Part shown: positions 7,462 through 15,195 of the stretch, piece after piece
Layout: each line of letters starts with the position of its first letter
How positions within the stretch are numbered: the stretch's first letter is position 1
Source of the DNA: Bacillota bacterium
GTDB taxonomy: Bacteria; Bacillota; Negativicutes; DSM-13327
Direction of reading: 5' to 3'
Assembly: GCA_017889585.1 (NCBI GenBank)
Contig: JAGFZX010000029.1
Coordinates: 1 to 39,992, forward strand
DNA length: 39,992 bases
Position numbers and translations under genes: made by a program
Notes under the pieces: generated by a model
Databases searched by the model: none
The model's input: the letters and a program-made list of their open reading frames with translations, nothing else
Told to the model about the DNA's origin: nothing

Positions 7462-7504
7462 AAAGTCTACTAGTTGGCATATCGCTAGCTAGTAGACTTT
7501 TTTG
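7462..7504 (+). terminator. Bidirectional terminator between hcp and the CoA-transferase genes
   Basis: Twelve-bp arms AAAGTCTACTAG (7462-7473) and CTAGTAGACTTT (7489-7500) with a 15-nt loop and a T run on the plus strand. T-rich sequence also follows on the minus strand. It separates the convergent hcp and atoA. Confidence 0.85.
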
Positions 7505-7532: not shown

Positions 7533-8192
7533 TTAAAATCCGCCCATCGCCTTAAGATCAGAACTTACAGTGAAGTCTGCTTCCGTTTTCATACGGATAG
7601 TTTCGACGGTAACACCCTCTGCTATTTCTTTTAACACTATACTGTCTTTTTCAATAGTAAACACACCAAGTTCAGTAACAATCATTGTTACTACACCCTT
7701 ACCAGTCAAGGGTAATGTGCATTTATTAAGAATCTTCGCCGAACCATCTTTAGCACAATGTTCCATAGCAATAATAACTTTTTTTGCGCCAACAACCAAA
7801 TCCATGGCTCCCCCCATACCTGGAATCATTTTGCCGGGAACCATCCAATTTGCTAGATTACCTTCCACATCGACCTGCAAACCACCCAGTACGGTTACAT
7901 CTACATGTCCCCCACGGATTAGAGCAAATGACATCCCACTATCAAACATCGCTGCACCAGGGACAAATCCTGCCGGCTGCCCACCAGCATTCACAAGATT
8001 AGGATCAATCTGGCCATTTACAGGGCCAAGACCGACAAAACCATTTTCCGACTGGAGGATCACACTGATCTCTTGTGGCAAATAATTAGCAACCAAGGTT
8101 GGCAGTCCGATTCCAAGGTTAACCACGTCACCGTTTTTTAATTCTAATGCCACTCGTCGCGCAATGATTGTTTTAACATCCAATGACTTCAT
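7533..8192 (-). CDS. atoA: CoA-transferase beta subunit (AtoA/ScoB type)
   Basis: Beta subunit of a class I CoA-transferase that moves CoA between short-chain acyl-CoA and acids such as acetoacetate. The glutamate that forms the covalent CoA-thioester intermediate is in SENGFVGLG (E about residue 49). [25 protein letters not shown] and [18 protein letters not shown] are all standard for the subunit. The start at 8192 has CAGGAGGA upstream and overlaps the stop of the alpha-subunit gene as ATGA, giving translational coupling; the ORF could extend to 8213 but has no ribosome site there. This is the last gene of the sigma-54-controlled operon. In this context the substrate is most likely acetoacetate made by the BKACE reaction; butyrate or acetate as CoA donor/acceptor cannot be told apart. 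Confidence 0.9.
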
Positions 8193-8851
8193 AGCCAATA
8201 TCCTCCTGTACAAATGATTTTGTCCACTAAAATCCCCGGGGTCATCACTTCGTCAGGATCAATTGCACCAATTTCTACTATTTCGTCTACCTCAGCGATC
8301 ACCAAATCAGCTGCCATCGCCATGATTGGATTGAAGTTCCGTGCAGTTTTATCATAGATTAAGTTGCCTGCCTTATCTGCTTTTTTTGCCTTGAGAAACG
8401 CAACACTTGCCCTCAATGGTTTTTCTAACAGATATTCTTTGCCATCAACAACTATTTTTTGTTTGCCATTTTCTACTATTGTTCCAATTCCGGTTGGAGT
8501 AAGCACCCCGCCTAGACCAGCTCCACCGCAGCGAATTCGCTCTGCAAGAGTTCCTTGGGGAACGAGTTCCACTTCAATCTCATTATCAATCATTTGTTTT
8601 CCGGTATATGGATTAGTACCGATATGAGAGACAATTGCTTTTTTTACTTGGTGGCTAACAATCAACCGACCAACCCCTTTATCCATAAACGCTGTATCAT
8701 TCGCAATTAATGTTATGTCGTTCACATCACTATCGATAATTACTTGAATTATATTATCCGGAGTTCCTACTCCTAAAAAACCACCAACCATAACGACCAT
8801 ACCATCATGTAAAAATTCTGCCACTTGATCAATACCGATCAATTTGCTCAT
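8189..8851 (-). CDS. atoD: CoA-transferase alpha subunit (AtoD/ScoA type)
   Basis: Alpha subunit partnering the beta subunit encoded directly downstream (4-nt ATGA overlap). Family features: the N-terminal [18 protein letters not shown] (about residues 18-35), [53 protein letters not shown] and a C-terminal [16 protein letters not shown]. The length of 220 is normal. The start at 8851 follows AAGGAGG at good spacing; the longer reading to 8899 has no ribosome site. There are 165 nt and a strong inverted repeat between atoE and this gene, so expression of the transferase pair may be partly uncoupled from the upstream operon. Confidence 0.9.
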
Positions 8852-8955
8852 CTTATTAAACCTCCTTCTAAAAAAATAATTTGCGGCGACTCCCACCAAT
8901 CTATAAACAATTTGAATTTTTTAATTGCTAAATATAACTTCCTCGTACTCTCCCT

Positions 8956-8994
8956 AAAGTAAAGGCTACCCATTTTGTTGGTAGCCTTTACTTT
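8956..8994 (-). terminator. Perfect 15-bp hairpin between atoE and atoD
   Basis: AAAGTAAAGGCTACC (8956-8970) and GGTAGCCTTTACTTT (8980-8994), loop 9 nt. On the minus strand the 3' side is U-rich inside the arm but is followed by AGGGAGAG, not a T run. It may be an attenuator, an RNA processing/stability stem, or a weak terminator inside the operon. Confidence 0.5.
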
Positions 8995-9016
8995 ATTCTT
9001 TATAATGGTTTTAATA

Positions 9017-10336
9017 CTACTGAAACAGCATAATACCAGTTATAGCAACCACGTTTCCAAGAATGAACAACAACATGGAAAAACCGATCAGATCACGGAT
9101 ACTGATATTGGCGATAGCCAATAGGGGCAAAGCCCAGAAGGGGCAAACCACATTCCATATGCTTTCACCCCAGGCGACACCCATAGCCACTTTCCAAGGC
9201 TCAACACCCAATTGTGCAGCAGCGGGCAGCATGAACGGCGCCTGCACAACCCAGTGGCCTCCGGCCGAAGGAACAAAGATACTGATAATCAGGGATGAGA
9301 AGTAGCAATACAGCTCAAAGGTTTGATAACTTGCTGCCTTTAAAAGCAAATCAGAAATCCAAACTACCAGCCCGCTCCCATCCATAATCGCCATGATTCC
9401 TGCATAGAAAGGGTACTGGAGGATAATTCCGGCCGCGGTGACAGCCCCTTTGGACATAGCCTTACTATAATTGATCAGCGAACCATGAGCTAATATGCCT
9501 AAAATTATAAAGCTAAATATCAATATGTTTAAATTCAAGGTGCCGCCTTTTACGAAAAAATTGACAACATAAGCGACTCCCATCAATCCCAAAGAGTAGT
9601 TCAAGATAGGGCTAGTGTCTATATGGTCAGCCAACTGTTTTTCCATTGGTTCGAGGACTGGGGCCTGCTCATCTTCAAACAAGCTAGGGTCAGCTAAAAC
9701 CATATCTTCCTTTTTGGGGATCATCAATACAAGAACTAACGGAACCAGGATAGCAAGAGTAATCGTAATAAAGAGGGCTTGCGGGTGAAAAATTGTTTGT
9801 GATAAGGGAATAAGTCCAATTTGTTTTTCCAAGAAGTGCCCCTTGGTATTGATCAATAGGGGCACTGATGCTGACATGCCGCCATGGGTAAGGATAATTC
9901 CAGAAAAGGCAGCTGTAACTAACAAACGAAAATCGACGTCAGGATGGAGTTTGGCCGCTTCCCGGGCAAGTAGTCCACCTGCAATCAATCCTAGGCCCCA
10001 GTTGAAATAATATAATGCCATGGAGGCAAAGCCGATGAATATTACGGTTTGTACTGGCGTACGAGGTATCCCGGCTACAGCCCTGAGAAACCTACGAACT
10101 ATGGGAGACGCTGCTAACGCGTAGCCACTTACTATTACTAATGTCATTTGCATGGCAAACGCTAAGATACCGAAGAACCCTTTCCCCCAGTCATCTACAA
10201 TTTTCATTATCGGTGTATTTGTAATGCCCAGTGCCATAGCGACAACAACCAAAGAGATCATCCAAGCAATTGCAAACGGGTCTGGCAGATATTTTTGCAT
10301 CAGATTTACAAAAAACATAAGGAGTCTATTAATCAT
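9017..10336 (-). CDS. atoE: Short-chain fatty acid transporter, AtoE family
   Basis: Integral membrane protein with about 11-12 hydrophobic segments, of the AtoE/short-chain fatty acid transporter family. Family marks include YLPDPFAIAWM (residues 15-25), FNWGLGLIAGGLLAREAA in the first half, GGMSASVPLLI, GIILQYPFYAGIMAIMDGSGL, PSAGGHWVVQAPFMLPAAAQLGV and WGESIWNVVCPFWALPLL. The length of 439 is typical. The ribosome site before the ATG is weak (GAGAATGGG). It lies between the dehydrogenase (51 nt upstream) and the CoA-transferase genes, so it probably imports the growth substrate, acetoacetate, or a related short acid used by this operon. A ~40-residue charged cytoplasmic loop (PKKEDMVLADPSLFEDEQ onward) splits the two halves. 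Confidence 0.88.
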   Translation of the reverse strand: MINRLLMFFVNLMQKYLPDPFAIAWMISLVVVAMALGITNTPIMKIVDDWGKGFFGILAFAMQMTLVIVSGYALAASPIVRRFLRAVAGIPRTPVQTVIFIGFASMALYYFNWGLGLIAGGLLAREAAKLHPDVDFRLLVTAAFSGIILTHGGMSASVPLLINTKGHFLEKQIGLIPLSQTIFHPQALFITITLAILVPLVLVLMIPKKEDMVLADPSLFEDEQAPVLEPMEKQLADHIDTSPILNYSLGLMGVAYVVNFFVKGGTLNLNILIFSFIILGILAHGSLINYSKAMSKGAVTAAGIILQYPFYAGIMAIMDGSGLVVWISDLLLKAASYQTFELYCYFSSLIISIFVPSAGGHWVVQAPFMLPAAAQLGVEPWKVAMGVAWGESIWNVVCPFWALPLLAIANISIRDLIGFSMLLFILGNVVAITGIMLFQ

Positions 10337-10387
10337 TATTACACACCCATTCTCTTTTATTTCTCTCGACAGCTTTCTTCTTGGACC

Positions 10388-11332
10388 TTAGATATAATAC
10401 TCTGATGCTTTTAACTGATGGATCAGTTTTTTCATAAACTCTTTCTTGATAACGGGGATCTCTGCTTCATCATATTTAAAGAATCCTTCTCCAGATTTTG
10501 TACCCAATTTACCCTCCGCCACTTTTTGCCGCAGAAGATTATTGGCCGACTGAGAATTATCTATGACTTTAAGTAAGTTATCCCCTACGATACACCAAAT
10601 ATCAAGACCACCGAAATCTGCAACCTCCAACTGACCTGTTGTAGCATACCTGAATGCTGGTCCAAACTTCAATGCTTTATCAACATCCTCAGGAGCAGCA
10701 ATACCCAATTCTATGATAGAAAATGCTTCTCTTGCCACACCTTGCTGAATTCGGTTAGCGACAAGCCCTGGAACATCCTTTAATACTTTAACCGTTTGCT
10801 TTTTAATGGAAGCATACATCTGTTCAACTTGTATAAAAATACTTTCTGGCATATTACCAAAACAAGATAATTCTACCAACGGCATCAAGTGGCCAGGGTT
10901 ATACCAATGACTTACCATCATTCGTTGTTTACGCTCATCACTAACAAGTGCCATCATCTCATTCAATGGTAAGCTAGATGTATTACTTGCCAGAATCGTA
11001 TGTTCTGGACAATATTCATCTAATTGCTTAAATAAGTCCTGCTTCAATTTTAAAATTTCCGGTACCGCTTCGATGACATAATCTCGGTCAGCCACTGCTT
11101 GCTTTAAATCTGTTGATAAGATGATCCTATCAAGAATCGGTTGTATTGTCTGAATCGTAATAAAATCTTCCTCGGCCAGTAATGTAAGTTCCTCTTCAAT
11201 CTCTTTTTTTGCCGAATGAAGCCGGGCTTCATCTGTATCATATAAATTAACCTCATATCCATACATGGCAAAAGCTTCTGCAATCCCATGTCCCATGGTA
11301 CCTGAACCTAAAACGGCTATGTTCTTAATCAT
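10388..11332 (-). CDS. 3-hydroxyacyl-CoA dehydrogenase family NAD-dependent enzyme
   Basis: Two-domain dehydrogenase with an N-terminal Rossmann fold (VLGSGTMGHGIAEAFA, about 7-22; acidic D at the end of strand 2, LYDTDE, indicating NAD). The central catalytic part has SNTSSLP and the His-Glu pair in HWYNPGHLMPLVE. The C-terminal 3HCDH domain has DVPGLVANRIQQGVAREAF and a terminal GTKSGEGFFKYDE. The usual butyryl-pathway Hbd has 282 residues and an HFFNP motif; this one has 314 and HWYNPGHLMP, closer to dehydrogenases that act on free 3-hydroxy acids such as carnitine. In front of a BKACE gene it most likely makes the 3-keto acid. The second of two consecutive ATGs is chosen because GGAGG is 6 nt before it. 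The exact substrate is unknown. Confidence 0.85.
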   Translation of the reverse strand: MIKNIAVLGSGTMGHGIAEAFAMYGYEVNLYDTDEARLHSAKKEIEEELTLLAEEDFITIQTIQPILDRIILSTDLKQAVADRDYVIEAVPEILKLKQDLFKQLDEYCPEHTILASNTSSLPLNEMMALVSDERKQRMMVSHWYNPGHLMPLVELSCFGNMPESIFIQVEQMYASIKKQTVKVLKDVPGLVANRIQQGVAREAFSIIELGIAAPEDVDKALKFGPAFRYATTGQLEVADFGGLDIWCIVGDNLLKVIDNSQSANNLLRQKVAEGKLGTKSGEGFFKYDEAEIPVIKKEFMKKLIHQLKASEYYI

Positions 11333-11361
11333 CATTATCCTCCATCTTATCCCTACTAGCG

Positions 11362-12186
11362 CTATTTACGCAAACCCAATATTTCCCTAGCATCATCTGT
11401 TGTAGCAACGCTACCGTTCGCTTCTTTAATGAGTCTAACCGCTCTTTCAACAAATTCCACATTTGATTTAGCCAAACGATTCTTAGCATACATAACGTTA
11501 TCTTCCATACCGAGACGAATATGTCCGCCTAGAGCAATAGTAGCCAATTGGATTGGTACATGCCCAGCGCCGATCCCGAATGCTGACCAGGTGGAGTCCT
11601 TTGGAATAAGGCTTTTAAGGTATACGAGATTTTCTACCGTAGCCGCTGTTCCTCCGGCTGCCCCCATGCAAAATTGAAAATGAATTGGCCCCTTCAATAT
11701 CCCCTTTTTTTGGTAGTATAGGGCATTGTAGATAAAACTAGCATCAAATACTTCAACTTCAGGCTTAATGCCATTCTCCTGGGCGACTAATCCCAATTTT
11801 TCCAAAAAGGCAGGAGGATTCAAAAACAAGCCTGTATGCATCCAGTTCATGGATCCGGCGTCATAGGAACACATTTCAGGTTTAAGAGCAATAAGATGAG
11901 CTATACGAGTTTCCTCAGTGGCATTCAGGTCGCCAGAGGTAGTGAGATTTAAGATAATTGGACATTTCTTTTCTTTAATAAGAGCAACTGTTTCTATGAA
12001 TTTTTCTGTGCTCATTGTACCGTTGCCTTCATCATCACGCATATGCAGATGAGCTACTGAGGCTCCTGCCTGCCAGCATTGATAAACGTCTTCAGCAATT
12101 TCTTTCGGAGTCATTGGCACGTTAGGATTATTTTCTTTCTTAGGCCATGCACCAGTTGTTGCAACAGTGATAATCGTTTTTCCCAT
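11362..12186 (-). CDS. Beta-keto acid cleavage enzyme (BKACE/Kce family, DUF849)
   Basis: Zn-dependent TIM-barrel enzyme that condenses a 3-keto acid with acetyl-CoA and cleaves it to acetoacetate plus a new acyl-CoA. Metal ligands H46 and H48 are in AHLHMRD. S84, E143, R224, E228 and D229 match the catalytic set described for Kce (Ser82, Glu143, Arg226, Glu230, Asp231, with small offsets). In lysine-fermenting Kce a glutamate at position 14 (GAE) is said, from memory, to bind the substrate amine; here the residue is W14 (GAW). The other lysine-fermentation genes (kdd, kal, kamA, kamD) are absent, so lysine is an unlikely source. Neighbours supply acetoacetate activation and thiolysis. Length 274 is normal for the family. 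AGGTGA precedes the ATG. Confidence 0.88.
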   Translation of the reverse strand: MGKTIITVATTGAWPKKENNPNVPMTPKEIAEDVYQCWQAGASVAHLHMRDDEGNGTMSTEKFIETVALIKEKKCPIILNLTTSGDLNATEETRIAHLIALKPEMCSYDAGSMNWMHTGLFLNPPAFLEKLGLVAQENGIKPEVEVFDASFIYNALYYQKKGILKGPIHFQFCMGAAGGTAATVENLVYLKSLIPKDSTWSAFGIGAGHVPIQLATIALGGHIRLGMEDNVMYAKNRLAKSNVEFVERAVRLIKEANGSVATTDDAREILGLRK

Positions 12187-12211
12187 GATTCATTCACCTC
12201 ATAATTTTTAT

Positions 12212-13396
12212 TTATATCAATTCGATAATTGTAGCAATACCTTGGCCGCCGCCAATGCAAAGAGTTGCTAGTCCACGTTTTGCATCACGTTGCTGCATAG
12301 CATGTATGAGTGTAACAAGTATGCGCGCACCACTAGCACCAATAGGATGTCCAAGAGCAACTGCACCGCCATGAACATTAATTTTTTCTTTTGGTAATCC
12401 TAACTCTTTACCGACTGCCAAAAATTGAGCGGCAAAGGCTTCGTTGGCTTCAAACAAATCAATATCGGCAACGGTTAAGCCTGCATTTGATAACGCTTTA
12501 CGCGTTGCTGAAACTGGCCCCATGCCCATAATGGATGGATCAACACCGCCAGATCCGTAACCAATAATTCTAGCCAGCGGTTTAAGTCCGAGTGATTTGG
12601 CTTTATCTGCGCTCATTACAACTAGCGCTGCAGCACCGTCATTGATACCTGAAGCATTGCCAGCGGTTACGGTACCATTCTCTTTCTTGAATGCTGTTCG
12701 CAAGCTAGCAAGAGAAGCTACAGTAGTATTGGGTTTAGGGAATTCATCGGTATCGAAAATAACATCGCCTTTTTTACCTTTGATGATCACTGGCACTATT
12801 TCATTTTTAAAGGCACCGCTTTCGATTGCATTAACCGCTTTAGTTTGCGATTCATAAGCTAACTCATCCTGGTCAGCCCGGGTAATACCATACTTAGCTG
12901 CTACATTTTCGGCAGTAACGCCCATGTGATAGTCATTGAATGCGCACCATAGACCATCTTGGATCATAATATCGATAAGTTTGCTGTTTCCCATACGGTA
13001 ACCCCAACGAGCCTTGCTATCCAAAAGATAAGGAGCATTGCTCATGCTTTCCATACCACCGGCAATAACAACCTCAGCGTCACCAGCCTTAATCGATTGA
13101 GCGGCTAGATTCACTGCCTTAAGGCCTGAACCACAAACCTTGTTAATGGTGAAAGATGGAACTTCTACTGGAATACCTGATTTGACTGATGCTTGGCGAG
13201 CTGGGTTCTGCCCTAAGCCCGCCTGAAGCACATTGCCCAGAATAACCTCATCAATCATGTTGCCTTCCACATGCGCACGTTCAAGAGCGGCCTTAATAAT
13301 AAGACTTCCCATCTCTTGCGCAGTTAAAGGAGCCAATGAGCCATTGAAACTACCTATAGCTGTCCGAACAGCACTAACGATAACTACTTCTTTCAT
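12212..13396 (-). CDS. atoB: Acetyl-CoA acetyltransferase (thiolase)
   Basis: Thiolase II that splits acetoacetyl-CoA with CoA into two acetyl-CoA, or runs in reverse. The nucleophile is C88 in [10 protein letters not shown]; the other active-site blocks are NVNEAF-like NEAFAAQFL (about 318), [16 protein letters not shown] (His about 349) and CIGGGQGIA (Cys about 379). Length 394 is standard. GGAGGAATG lies in front of the ATG. It is the first gene of the operon, 26 nt before the BKACE gene, with a consensus sigma-54 promoter 96 nt upstream of the start codon. As first gene it would be expressed together with the cleavage enzyme, consistent with disposal of acetoacetate through acetoacetyl-CoA. 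The acyl preference is not certain, since thlA and phaA enzymes look the same. Confidence 0.93.
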
Positions 13397-13491
13397 ACTT
13401 TTTCATTCCTCCACATAAGTTGTTACGCTAATTCATACCAATTCTTCCCATGAATTGTTGTATGGTCACTTATTGATTGCATCTTATGGTA

Positions 13492-13509
13492 ATGCAAATA
13501 ACGTGCCAA
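13492..13509 (-). promoter_or_regulatory. Sigma-54 (-24/-12) promoter of the thiolase-BKACE operon
   Basis: Read on the minus strand the site is TTGGCACGTTATTTGCAT, a full match to TGGCACG-N4-TTGC with GG and GC ten bases apart. Predicted start near 13482, leaving an 85-nt leader before the thiolase ATG. A sigma-54 activator gene lies directly upstream. Confidence 0.92.
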
Positions 13510-13549
13510 CTAAAATAAGGGGAATTATACTGCAATTTCTAAATATAAA

Positions 13550-13587
13550 AGCAATAATGCGATGAAATATTTCATCGCATTATTGCT
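13550..13587 (-). terminator. 38-bp perfect palindrome: terminator of the activator gene and/or enhancer site
   Basis: Arms of AGCAATAATGCGATGAAAT and its exact complement meet without mismatch. On the minus strand a TTTTATATTT tail follows, so it fits a terminator after the activator gene (stop at 13645). Its centre is also about 87 nt before the sigma-54 start point, a normal place for an upstream activating site. The sequence does not decide between the two. Confidence 0.65.
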
Positions 13588-13644
13588 CAAAATCAGAAAA
13601 GTCATTTAATTTTATCTATTATAACCTGATGGAAAAAATCATCA

Positions 13645-15195
13645 TTACTGATGCATATTTTCATCACCTATGCTTATTCCTAGTTTTTTTGCTTTTTTTA
13701 CAACAGTGGATTGATCTATTCTTAATATTTTGGCAACTTTCCTTGTACTTCCATAAATAGACAATGCTCTTTCTATCGTCTTTTTCTCAACATTCGCCAC
13801 AATTTCTTTAAGTCCTAATTCTGGATTGAGTAGTTCAGTATAACAAGAATCAATATTTAATAAAATTTCTATCTGTTGTGCACTAATCATCGCGTTTTGA
13901 TCTGAAATAATAACTAATCTCTCAATAATATTCTGCAATTCCCTTATGTTTCCTGGCCAAGAATAGTGCTTCAAAACTTCCAAACCCAGTTGTTCAATCT
14001 CCGTTAATTTACCGTATTTCCCATTGTAAATATCAATAAAATGTTGAGTCAATAAAACTACATCCTCAACTCTTGATCGCAATGCAGGAATATGAATAGG
14101 AAATATATTTAACCGATAGTATAAATCTTCTCTGAATTTACCTTGCTTCACCATTTCCCGCAATTCACAGTTTGTTGCCGCAATAATTCTCACATCGAGT
14201 TTAACTGACTTTCTTCCTCCAATTTTCGTCACTTCTTTATGTTGAATAACCCTTAGTAATTTGGACTGTAAGTCCATGGTCATTTCTCCGATCTCATCCA
14301 ATAACAATGTACCGTTGTCTGCCAATTCAAACATGCCTATTTTACCTGAAGGAGATGCGCCAGTAAAAGCTCCTTTTTCATAACCAAAAAGTTCCGATTC
14401 CAACAAGTTAGCAGGAATGGCTGCACAATTAACTTTTATAAAAGGGCCATCTTTCCTGGTGCTGTGCATATAAATTTCATCTGCTACAACTTCTTTACCA
14501 GTACCCGTTTCTCCCATAATAAGAACTGTAACATCTAAACCAGCCACTTGTTGTATCATTTGGGATACCTTCTGAATGCCTAAACTTTTTCCTACAAGAT
14601 TTTTATGTAGATGCATTTTCCTTAAATGCTCAATTTCTTGTTTGTGTTTAATTTCATATTCCTCAACTATTTTTATTTTTTGTTGTGATGCTTCTAAATC
14701 AGCTTCCATTGCTAAAAGATCTGTAATTTCTCTGTCAATAATTACGACTTTCTTAACGTTACCTTCCTCATCGAAAATTGGGATTCCTGTAATTAACATT
14801 TTTATCCCATTTCGAGTACTGGTCCCCATGGAGTTAACTTGTTTCTTTGTTTTAATGACCTCAGGAGTTACCGGATTTTTATATAAGCCTTCTTTTACTA
14901 TATCATTCACATATTTGTTTACTACTTCTTCAGCTCTTATACCTGTTATTCTTGTATAAGCCTTATTCACATAAAGCGTCTTGCCACTGCCATCTGCTAT
15001 ATATAACCCATCATAAAGATGGTCTCCAATCTCCCTAAAATCAAATTCTTTTAACTGCCTCAGCTCTTCACTTACTTTGTACAATCCTTCTGTAATTTTC
15101 TCTTTTTGTGTGACAATTTCATCATTATCTTTATTGATCTTATTCATCAAATCTATCAAGAAATTTATTGAAGAAAACCCGTATTGAGATTTCAT
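13645..15195 (-). CDS. Sigma-54-dependent transcriptional activator with PAS sensor domain
   Basis: Enhancer-binding activator. Order of parts: an N-terminal coiled region (about 1-55); a PAS domain (about 57-170) containing [22 protein letters not shown]; a linker coiled coil (about 170-195); an AAA+ domain with Walker A GETGTGKE, the sigma-54 contact loop GAFTGA and the Walker B region LLLDEIGEM, plus R-finger region [12 protein letters not shown]; and a C-terminal TyrR-like helix-turn-helix ([25 protein letters not shown] region). All motifs for activation are intact. The PAS domain probably senses a pathway intermediate or acyl-CoA. It is encoded in the same direction just upstream of the operon, with the sigma-54 promoter in between, and so is its likely regulator. 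AAGGAG precedes the ATG at 15195. No receiver domain is present. Confidence 0.93.

Follow-up and report, generated by a model that had tools for sequence, protein, structure and literature searches.

In Escherichia coli, the atoDAEB operon with AtoC combines a CoA-transferase, the permease AtoE, a thiolase and a sigma-54 activator. The same components occur in a gene block of the 39,992-nt contig JAGFZX010000029.1 (hereafter the window, i.e., the whole stretch of DNA analysed) from the genome of a Pelosinus-like bacterium of the Negativicutes (assembly GCA_017889585.1), but this block adds a 3HCDH-family dehydrogenase and a BKACE, and its activator has a PAS domain, with no receiver domain matched by Pfam, and reaches 307.9 bits on the AtoC model against a cut-off of 714; a simple AtoDAEB reading was rejected, as it leaves the dehydrogenase and the BKACE unexplained. 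The phloroglucinol pathway of Clostridium scatologenes, assayed by Zhou et al. 2023 (PMC10470551), comes closer: after reduction of the ring by PGR, its opening by DPGC gives (S)-3-hydroxy-5-oxohexanoate, which TfD converts oxidatively into triacetate, the compound from which triacetate acetoacetate-lyase (TAL) forms acetoacetate and acetoacetyl-CoA. The window block has the TfD and TAL steps, the CoA-transferase and the thiolase in common with that pathway; it differs by having neither PGR nor DPGC, by AtoE instead of a major-family transporter, by a sigma-54 promoter with an operator, and by a second, ~38% identical dehydrogenase type. A dehydrogenase, a BKACE, acetoacetate activation and a thiolase also make up the deoxyribonate BKACE pathway (PMC6365646), whose own features are an SDR dehydrogenase, MFS transporters and a glycerate kinase.

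Sequence features, genome context and the predicted regulon together point to an entry compound for the window block, which supersedes the view of an earlier annotation made from the letters alone (the sequence-only reading) that this compound has not been assigned. We consider it likely, with a probability of roughly 0.7, that the block imports (S)-3-hydroxy-5-oxohexanoate or triacetate, both intermediates of phloroglucinol breakdown, and would ferment them to acetyl-CoA. In the proposed route, AtoE would import the acid (its direction and cargo being predicted), the TfD-like dehydrogenase would oxidise it to triacetate (3,5-dioxohexanoate) with production of NADH, the TAL-type BKACE would convert triacetate and acetyl-CoA into acetoacetate and acetoacetyl-CoA, and AtoDA would turn acetoacetate into acetoacetyl-CoA, from which thiolase would form acetyl-CoA (net: triacetate + 2 CoA -> acetate + 2 acetyl-CoA); the activator would bind GATGA-N6-TCATC upon a PAS-sensed signal. 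As judged from known chemistry, both cleavage products of triacetate are acetoacetyl units, so that AtoDA and thiolase alone would complete the route, whereas other 3-keto acids would leave an acyl-CoA product and need disposal genes of their own.

The comparison of neighbourhoods covered the top 80 of the 246 related loci, in which 38 BKACE genes belong to DPGC loci (phloroglucinol loci) and 25, in addition to that of the window, neighbour both a TfD-type dehydrogenase and an AtoE-family gene, with no DPGC nearby (26 stand-alone loci). The names 'PGR' and 'DPGC' in these relatives rest on homology and gene content; NCBIfam yields just SDR and weak arylformamidase matches. In Kce of lysine fermentation, Glu14 contacts the amino group of the substrate, and the assayed C. 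scatologenes TAL is a BKACE with Trp for Glu14 (PMC10470551); the window BKACE also has Trp14, the residue of 54 of the 64 BKACEs in the two kinds of locus. At the 36 positions that separate the 38 phloroglucinol-locus BKACEs from eight Glu14 BKACEs (seven from the family and one solved Kce), the window enzyme carries the TAL residue 33 times and the Kce residue twice. What we take to be the zinc ligands and the site arginine of BKACEs are kept (H46, H48, E228 and R224). These residues suggest a BKACE of the TAL type and not of the lysine type, with a predicted activity of triacetate cleavage. The lysine cluster shares the BKACE family and the zinc ligands. A Kce acting on 3-keto-5-aminohexanoate would be consistent with Lys_ferment_KCE (NF052387) being the closest NCBIfam model; it is nevertheless very improbable, since the score on this model remains below the cut-off (292.9 bits against 382), Glu14 is replaced, and D-lysine 5,6-aminomutase (KamD, PF09043), where present (7 of 10 family genomes), is accompanied in each case by a separate Glu14 BKACE 1.2–1.5 kb away. 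Neither PF09043 nor a Glu14 BKACE was found in the window genome, which is 83.7% complete (a scope that holds for every absence in this genome). The sequence-only reading had described a closed enzyme set for a 3-hydroxy/3-keto acid, distinct from lysine fermentation and without the genes of the lysine route, and the analysis supports this view. In a quick BKACE tree (37 of 98 forks being weak), stand-alone and phloroglucinol kinds are intermingled: the best tree has 11 changes between them, and on starred branches, each stand-alone group comes to at least 4. As a separate observation, a Tyr said to occur in all BKACEs (Kce Tyr145; PMC12871164) is replaced by Phe (window residue 147) in all 38 phloroglucinol-locus and all 26 stand-alone BKACEs; provided that TAL works as in the published assay, triacetate cleavage would therefore not require the Tyr.

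The dehydrogenase displays the same affinity. TfD is without two CoA-contact residues of 3-hydroxybutyryl-CoA dehydrogenase (PMC10470551), and the corresponding positions of the window enzyme (Lys56 and Asn221 of that enzyme, Hbd) are F58 and A227, while S120, H143 and N194 are kept; the dehydrogenase of locus L027 has S122/H143/N194, as printed for TfD (PMC10470551), this locus being equated with the assayed C. scatologenes cluster by gene set and matching residue numbers alone (including Trp16, counted). The loss of the CoA contacts is thus, like Trp14, a likeness to the assayed pathway. Database names call such a dehydrogenase '3-hydroxybutyryl-CoA dehydrogenase', and its best solved relative is an acid dehydrogenase, pyridine-carboxylate dehydrogenase (165.7 bits). 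The HWYNPGHLMP motif noticed in the sequence-only reading is present, but its description as carnitine-dehydrogenase-like did not hold, the window enzyme scoring 124.5 bits (cut-off 592) and 101.3 bits (cut-off 414) on the carnitine dehydrogenase models. Carnitine clusters have a 3HCDH-family dehydrogenase next to a BKACE, as here; given these scores, and as the block shows neither a thioesterase nor a betaine gene, carnitine (dehydrocarnitine) catabolism is scarcely conceivable, and both the carnitine and the lysine Kce readings were rejected on the basis of cut-offs, residue 14 and genome context. Two types of dehydrogenase were distinguished among the modules, namely type a (HWYNP, that of the window) and type b (mostly HFWNP, like L027), and both module kinds use both. 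Type-a dehydrogenases adjoin SDR (PGR-like) and cyclase (DPGC) genes in Sporomusa malonica (75% identity) and Bradyrhizobium (54–57%).

That the TAL-like enzymes of the module have changed their specificity and degrade another short 3-hydroxy or 3-keto acid (e.g., 3-hydroxyvalerate, 3-hydroxyhexanoate or 5-hydroxy-3-oxohexanoate) appears quite unlikely. AtoE carries short fatty acids, which speaks for it. So does BKACE_178, another BKACE with some activity on several C5–C6 keto acids (PMC6365646). However, the operon contains none of the extra acyl-CoA disposal genes that such acids would need, no alignment column is a good discriminator between stand-alone and phloroglucinol TALs (the best reaches 0.80, where 1 is perfect), and for C. 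scatologenes TfD, the rate with acetoacetate is 0.02% of that with triacetate in the direction of reduction (PMC10470551).

The phloroglucinol reading also rests on regulation. The best -24/-12 site of the window, TTGGCACGTTATTTGCA (13509..13493, minus strand), scores 12.0 of 12.5 and lies 96 nt upstream of the thiolase ATG; no other site exceeds 10.0 across the 40 kb, and none of 2000 Markov shuffles of the promoter gap reaches 12.0. This consensus promoter sequence adjoins the gene of an activator with an AAA domain, in whose translation GAFTGA is visible, as expected for a sigma-54 operon. Behind the promoter lie six genes and not seven, the activator gene being upstream of it; they are close, co-directional and end at a terminator-like hairpin, and we predict that they are cotranscribed from this one sigma-54-type promoter. 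The association of thiolase, BKACE, dehydrogenase, AtoE and AtoDA with a -24/-12 promoter and a PAS-type activator, as given by the sequence-only reading, is thus borne out by coordinates, Pfam matches and promoter score. Upstream of the first gene of the TAL operon, a score of at least 10 was found in 24 of 26 stand-alone loci versus 1 of 38 phloroglucinol loci, a contrast limited to that position; TAL being internal in many phloroglucinol operons, whole loci were rescanned (below).

Upstream of the -24 element lies a dyad, the core of which is GATGA-N6-TCATC or, mostly in gut species, GGTGA-N6-TCACC. The window has the former, 51 nt upstream, within a palindrome that folds at -25.9 kcal/mol (z -7.45). 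In the 350 nt before the first gene of the TAL operon, 20 of the 26 stand-alone loci carry the perfect dyad and none of the 38 phloroglucinol loci does (two have it with one mismatch), and the rescan of whole loci recovered the composite of operator and promoter in 21/26 and 1/38 (S. malonica), respectively; in L007, L010 and L019, the composite precedes a neighbouring operon and not TAL. GRTGA-N6-TCAYC is likely the operator, predicted to be bound by the activator. Indeed, in the recognition helix (..DQSTVVKKA.. in the window), position 495 is Gln in 14/14 GATGA loci and His in 11/12 GGTGA loci, and L026, with a type-a dehydrogenase, combines GGTGA and His; shared descent could partly explain this tracking. 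The idea of a mere terminator was discarded: the core is common across species while the outer arms differ, and the four stand-alone loci without a site in the helix comparison carry other recognition helices. The palindrome is terminator-like all the same, and the two roles may overlap.

At the genome scale, the composite matched once in the window genome and once in each of two more of the 10 family genomes, 13 times in 9 of 15 type-a genomes and 12 times in 12 of 16 type-b genomes, the latter two sets being mostly selected for carrying the module. Altogether, 28 matches were found in 41 genome scans and 0 in all reversed controls; 27 adjoin activator, BKACE, AtoE or AtoDA genes, and the 28th, in Sporomusa silvacetica, precedes an acyl-CoA dehydrogenase/EtfBA/crotonase block within the same locus, which is expected because the route ends in acetoacetyl-CoA. 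In S. malonica, the composite lies directly 5' of atoD-atoA-cupin-PGR-DPGC, and this site before ring-opening genes ties the regulator to phloroglucinol. Two side observations concern these loci. A short methyl-accepting chemotaxis protein adjoins the module in S. malonica (L006, 2388-3206) and in the related genome G054 (L106, 4446-5312), with relatives at L007, L010 (short) and L011 (by clustering), and is likely a chemoreceptor for the compound of the module. In Bacillaceae (L019, 15315-18689; L022, 11980-15324; L024), this operator and promoter recur at a second BKACE (Gln14), which is accompanied by a PanE-like reductase and a GntP-type permease; the set would be a sister module for another acid.

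If the acid is imported, the ring would be opened elsewhere. DPGC was not found in the window genome, where no cyclase matched, a further difference from C. scatologenes (PMC10470551), and in G054 (listed as 100% complete, with the same operon), the best cyclase match is 84 bits, compared with 580–638 for full DPGCs. Among the 26 stand-alone genomes, 17 have no cyclase match above 100 bits (three with 55–70 bits, 14 with none at E 1e-10), among them Clostridium homopropionicum, S. silvacetica, Oleispirillum, Peribacillus and Psychrobacillus; incomplete genomes weaken such absences, which G054 and these five named strains support. SDRs of the window genome are 39–41% identical to a query to which PGRs of phloroglucinol loci are equally alike. 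An alternative keeps the same enzymes but has the acid made in the cell by an unrecognised ring opener or a split pathway, AtoE exporting or exchanging short-chain acids. Full DPGCs elsewhere in five stand-alone genomes (580–607 bits), with a DPGC-PGR pair in G002 on a different contig (L111) from L002 and L007, and divergent cyclases of ~270 aa in four more (149–165 bits; that of G017 beside a second phloroglucinol-like gene set) would fit it, but the 17 genomes above, the window genome included, leave this alternative unlikely. In some genomes, the module may act in trans, but the majority would depend on uptake of the acid.

Several points weigh against the import of a phloroglucinol intermediate. 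With regard to the ring opener, the missing DPGC of the window genome could be a gap, and DPGC or a divergent cyclase is present in 9 of 26 stand-alone genomes. Trp14 is not exclusive, being shared by 11 of the 31 BKACEs that lie in other contexts, and was dropped as sole proof of TAL; moreover, Phe14 takes its place in 10 of the 64 BKACEs from the two kinds of locus. The window dehydrogenase is below the cut-off of all 25 NCBIfam families listed, 3-hydroxybutyryl-CoA dehydrogenases trail its best solved relative closely (161.4 vs 165.7 bits), a near-tie by which the ranking decides little, and type a (22 rows) forms a clade of its own, separate from type b, the assayed kind. Six of the 26 stand-alone loci have no dyad before TAL (in L007 and L010, it precedes atoE), and the tie between operator and module type is not significant after removal of shared descent (5 independent pairs, p 0.125), even if the direction is almost always equal where these pairs differ. 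Finally, the cargo of AtoE could be acetate, butyrate or acetoacetate, and all enzyme activities in the block are predicted.

More tentatively, and at somewhat less than even odds, we propose a scavenger guild across Negativicutes, Clostridia, Bacilli and Proteobacteria that would open no ring and would possess a dedicated sigma-54 import-and-cleave operon, the regulon of the PAS-type enhancer-binding protein and GRTGA-N6-TCAYC having been repeatedly joined to and cut from ring-opening genes. If true, polyphenol degraders release ring-opened acids and polyphenol breakdown is divided between species, so that carbon from flavonoids and tannins may pass from one to another after ring opening, in soil and gut. 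The pathway itself is known, and the stand-alone, sigma-54-type arrangement is a variant of it; it gives a specific, testable substrate to a BKACE operon with a dehydrogenase named as 3-hydroxybutyryl-CoA dehydrogenase and a BKACE that scores best on a lysine model, and the predicted regulator-operator pair could be used for finding such genes in genomes. Among the titles and abstract starts searched, which covered few subscription papers, none was found on a stand-alone module or on sigma-54 control of the phloroglucinol pathway, and nothing direct on triacetic acid lactone catabolism.

Table 1. Features of the gene block and its edges, from the activator gene leftward (window positions).
Feature	Position	Strand	Evidence
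Sigma-54 activator (PAS + AAA + HTH), predicted operon regulator	13645..15195	-	Pfam PAS, Sigma54_activat (239 bits), HTH_50; helix residue tracks operator type
38-bp perfect palindrome with predicted operator GATGAAATATTTCATC (13561-13576)	13550..13587	.	Also a terminator-like hairpin 3' of the activator gene
-24/-12 (sigma-54) promoter sequence TTGGCACGTTATTTGCA	13493..13509	-	Score 12.0/12.5; 0/2000 shuffles
Acetyl-CoA C-acetyltransferase (thiolase)	12212..13396	-	TIGR01930, 513 bits (cut-off 240.55)
BKACE, predicted triacetate acetoacetate-lyase type (Trp14)	11362..12186	-	PF05853; 33/36 discriminating positions; tree
Predicted (S)-3-hydroxy-5-oxohexanoate dehydrogenase (TfD-like)	10388..11335	-	S120/H143/N194 kept; CoA-contact positions F58, A227; context
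AtoE-family short-chain fatty acid permease, predicted importer	9017..10336	-	PF02667, 407 bits
Hairpin between atoE and atoD	8956..8994	-	Fold; no T run on coding strand; similar in G054
AtoD, CoA-transferase alpha	8189..8899	-	NF007394, 338.3 bits (cut-off 315)
AtoA, CoA-transferase beta	7533..8213	-	TIGR02428, 311.1 bits (cut-off 243.55)
Terminator-like hairpin at operon end, T run on both strands	7462..7500	.	Scan (+ strand); minus-strand fold

The seven genes, taken from the open reading frames of the window, all lie on the minus strand within 7533-15195, and run leftward from the activator and its promoter through thiolase, BKACE, dehydrogenase and AtoE to AtoD and AtoA, with Pfam matches to PAS and Sigma54_activat, thiolase, BKACE, 3HCDH, SCFA_trans and CoA_trans (twice). 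Gaps of 25, 26 and 51 nt separate thiolase, BKACE, dehydrogenase and AtoE, and the AtoE-AtoD gap of ~165 nt contains a strong hairpin (8956-8994), with a counterpart in G054, which is maybe an element of mRNA processing or stability. Judging from the starts of homologues, the TTG codons are probably not the true starts, and those of AtoD and AtoA likely lie near 8851 and 8192, respectively. Generic scans of the window found terminator-like hairpins (4, that of the operon end included, versus 5.9 expected) and promoters (22 versus 24.0) no better than chance. The identical seven-gene order is present in G054, with 77–96% identity to the window genes, and the flanking genes differ by eye, which makes the block a unit.

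Minor observations were made on neighbouring systems. In the Pelosinus fermentans UBA6563 assembly (L001/L107/L115), the interval between activator and BKACE holds just a short thiolase-like match, where the window has a whole thiolase gene. The other BKACE of the window genome (L108, G000:C15; Val14) belongs to a separate pathway, with aminotransferase-, dehydratase-, SDR-, aldehyde dehydrogenase- and MFS-like neighbours (by eye). A divergent DPGC-like cyclase in L109 (G019) stands with a TfD-like dehydrogenase, a BKACE (55%), an iron alcohol dehydrogenase-like gene, its own sigma-54 activator and, by eye, LarB/LarC-like genes, perhaps for a different cyclic diketone route. L110 (G017) holds a second, divergent phloroglucinol-like set made up of cupin, dehydrogenase, SDR, thiolase, two cyclases (30–33%) and a BKACE (49%), and in L009, L012, L037 and L040, a Trp14 BKACE without TfD adjoins another cyclase family (~25% to DPGC where measured).

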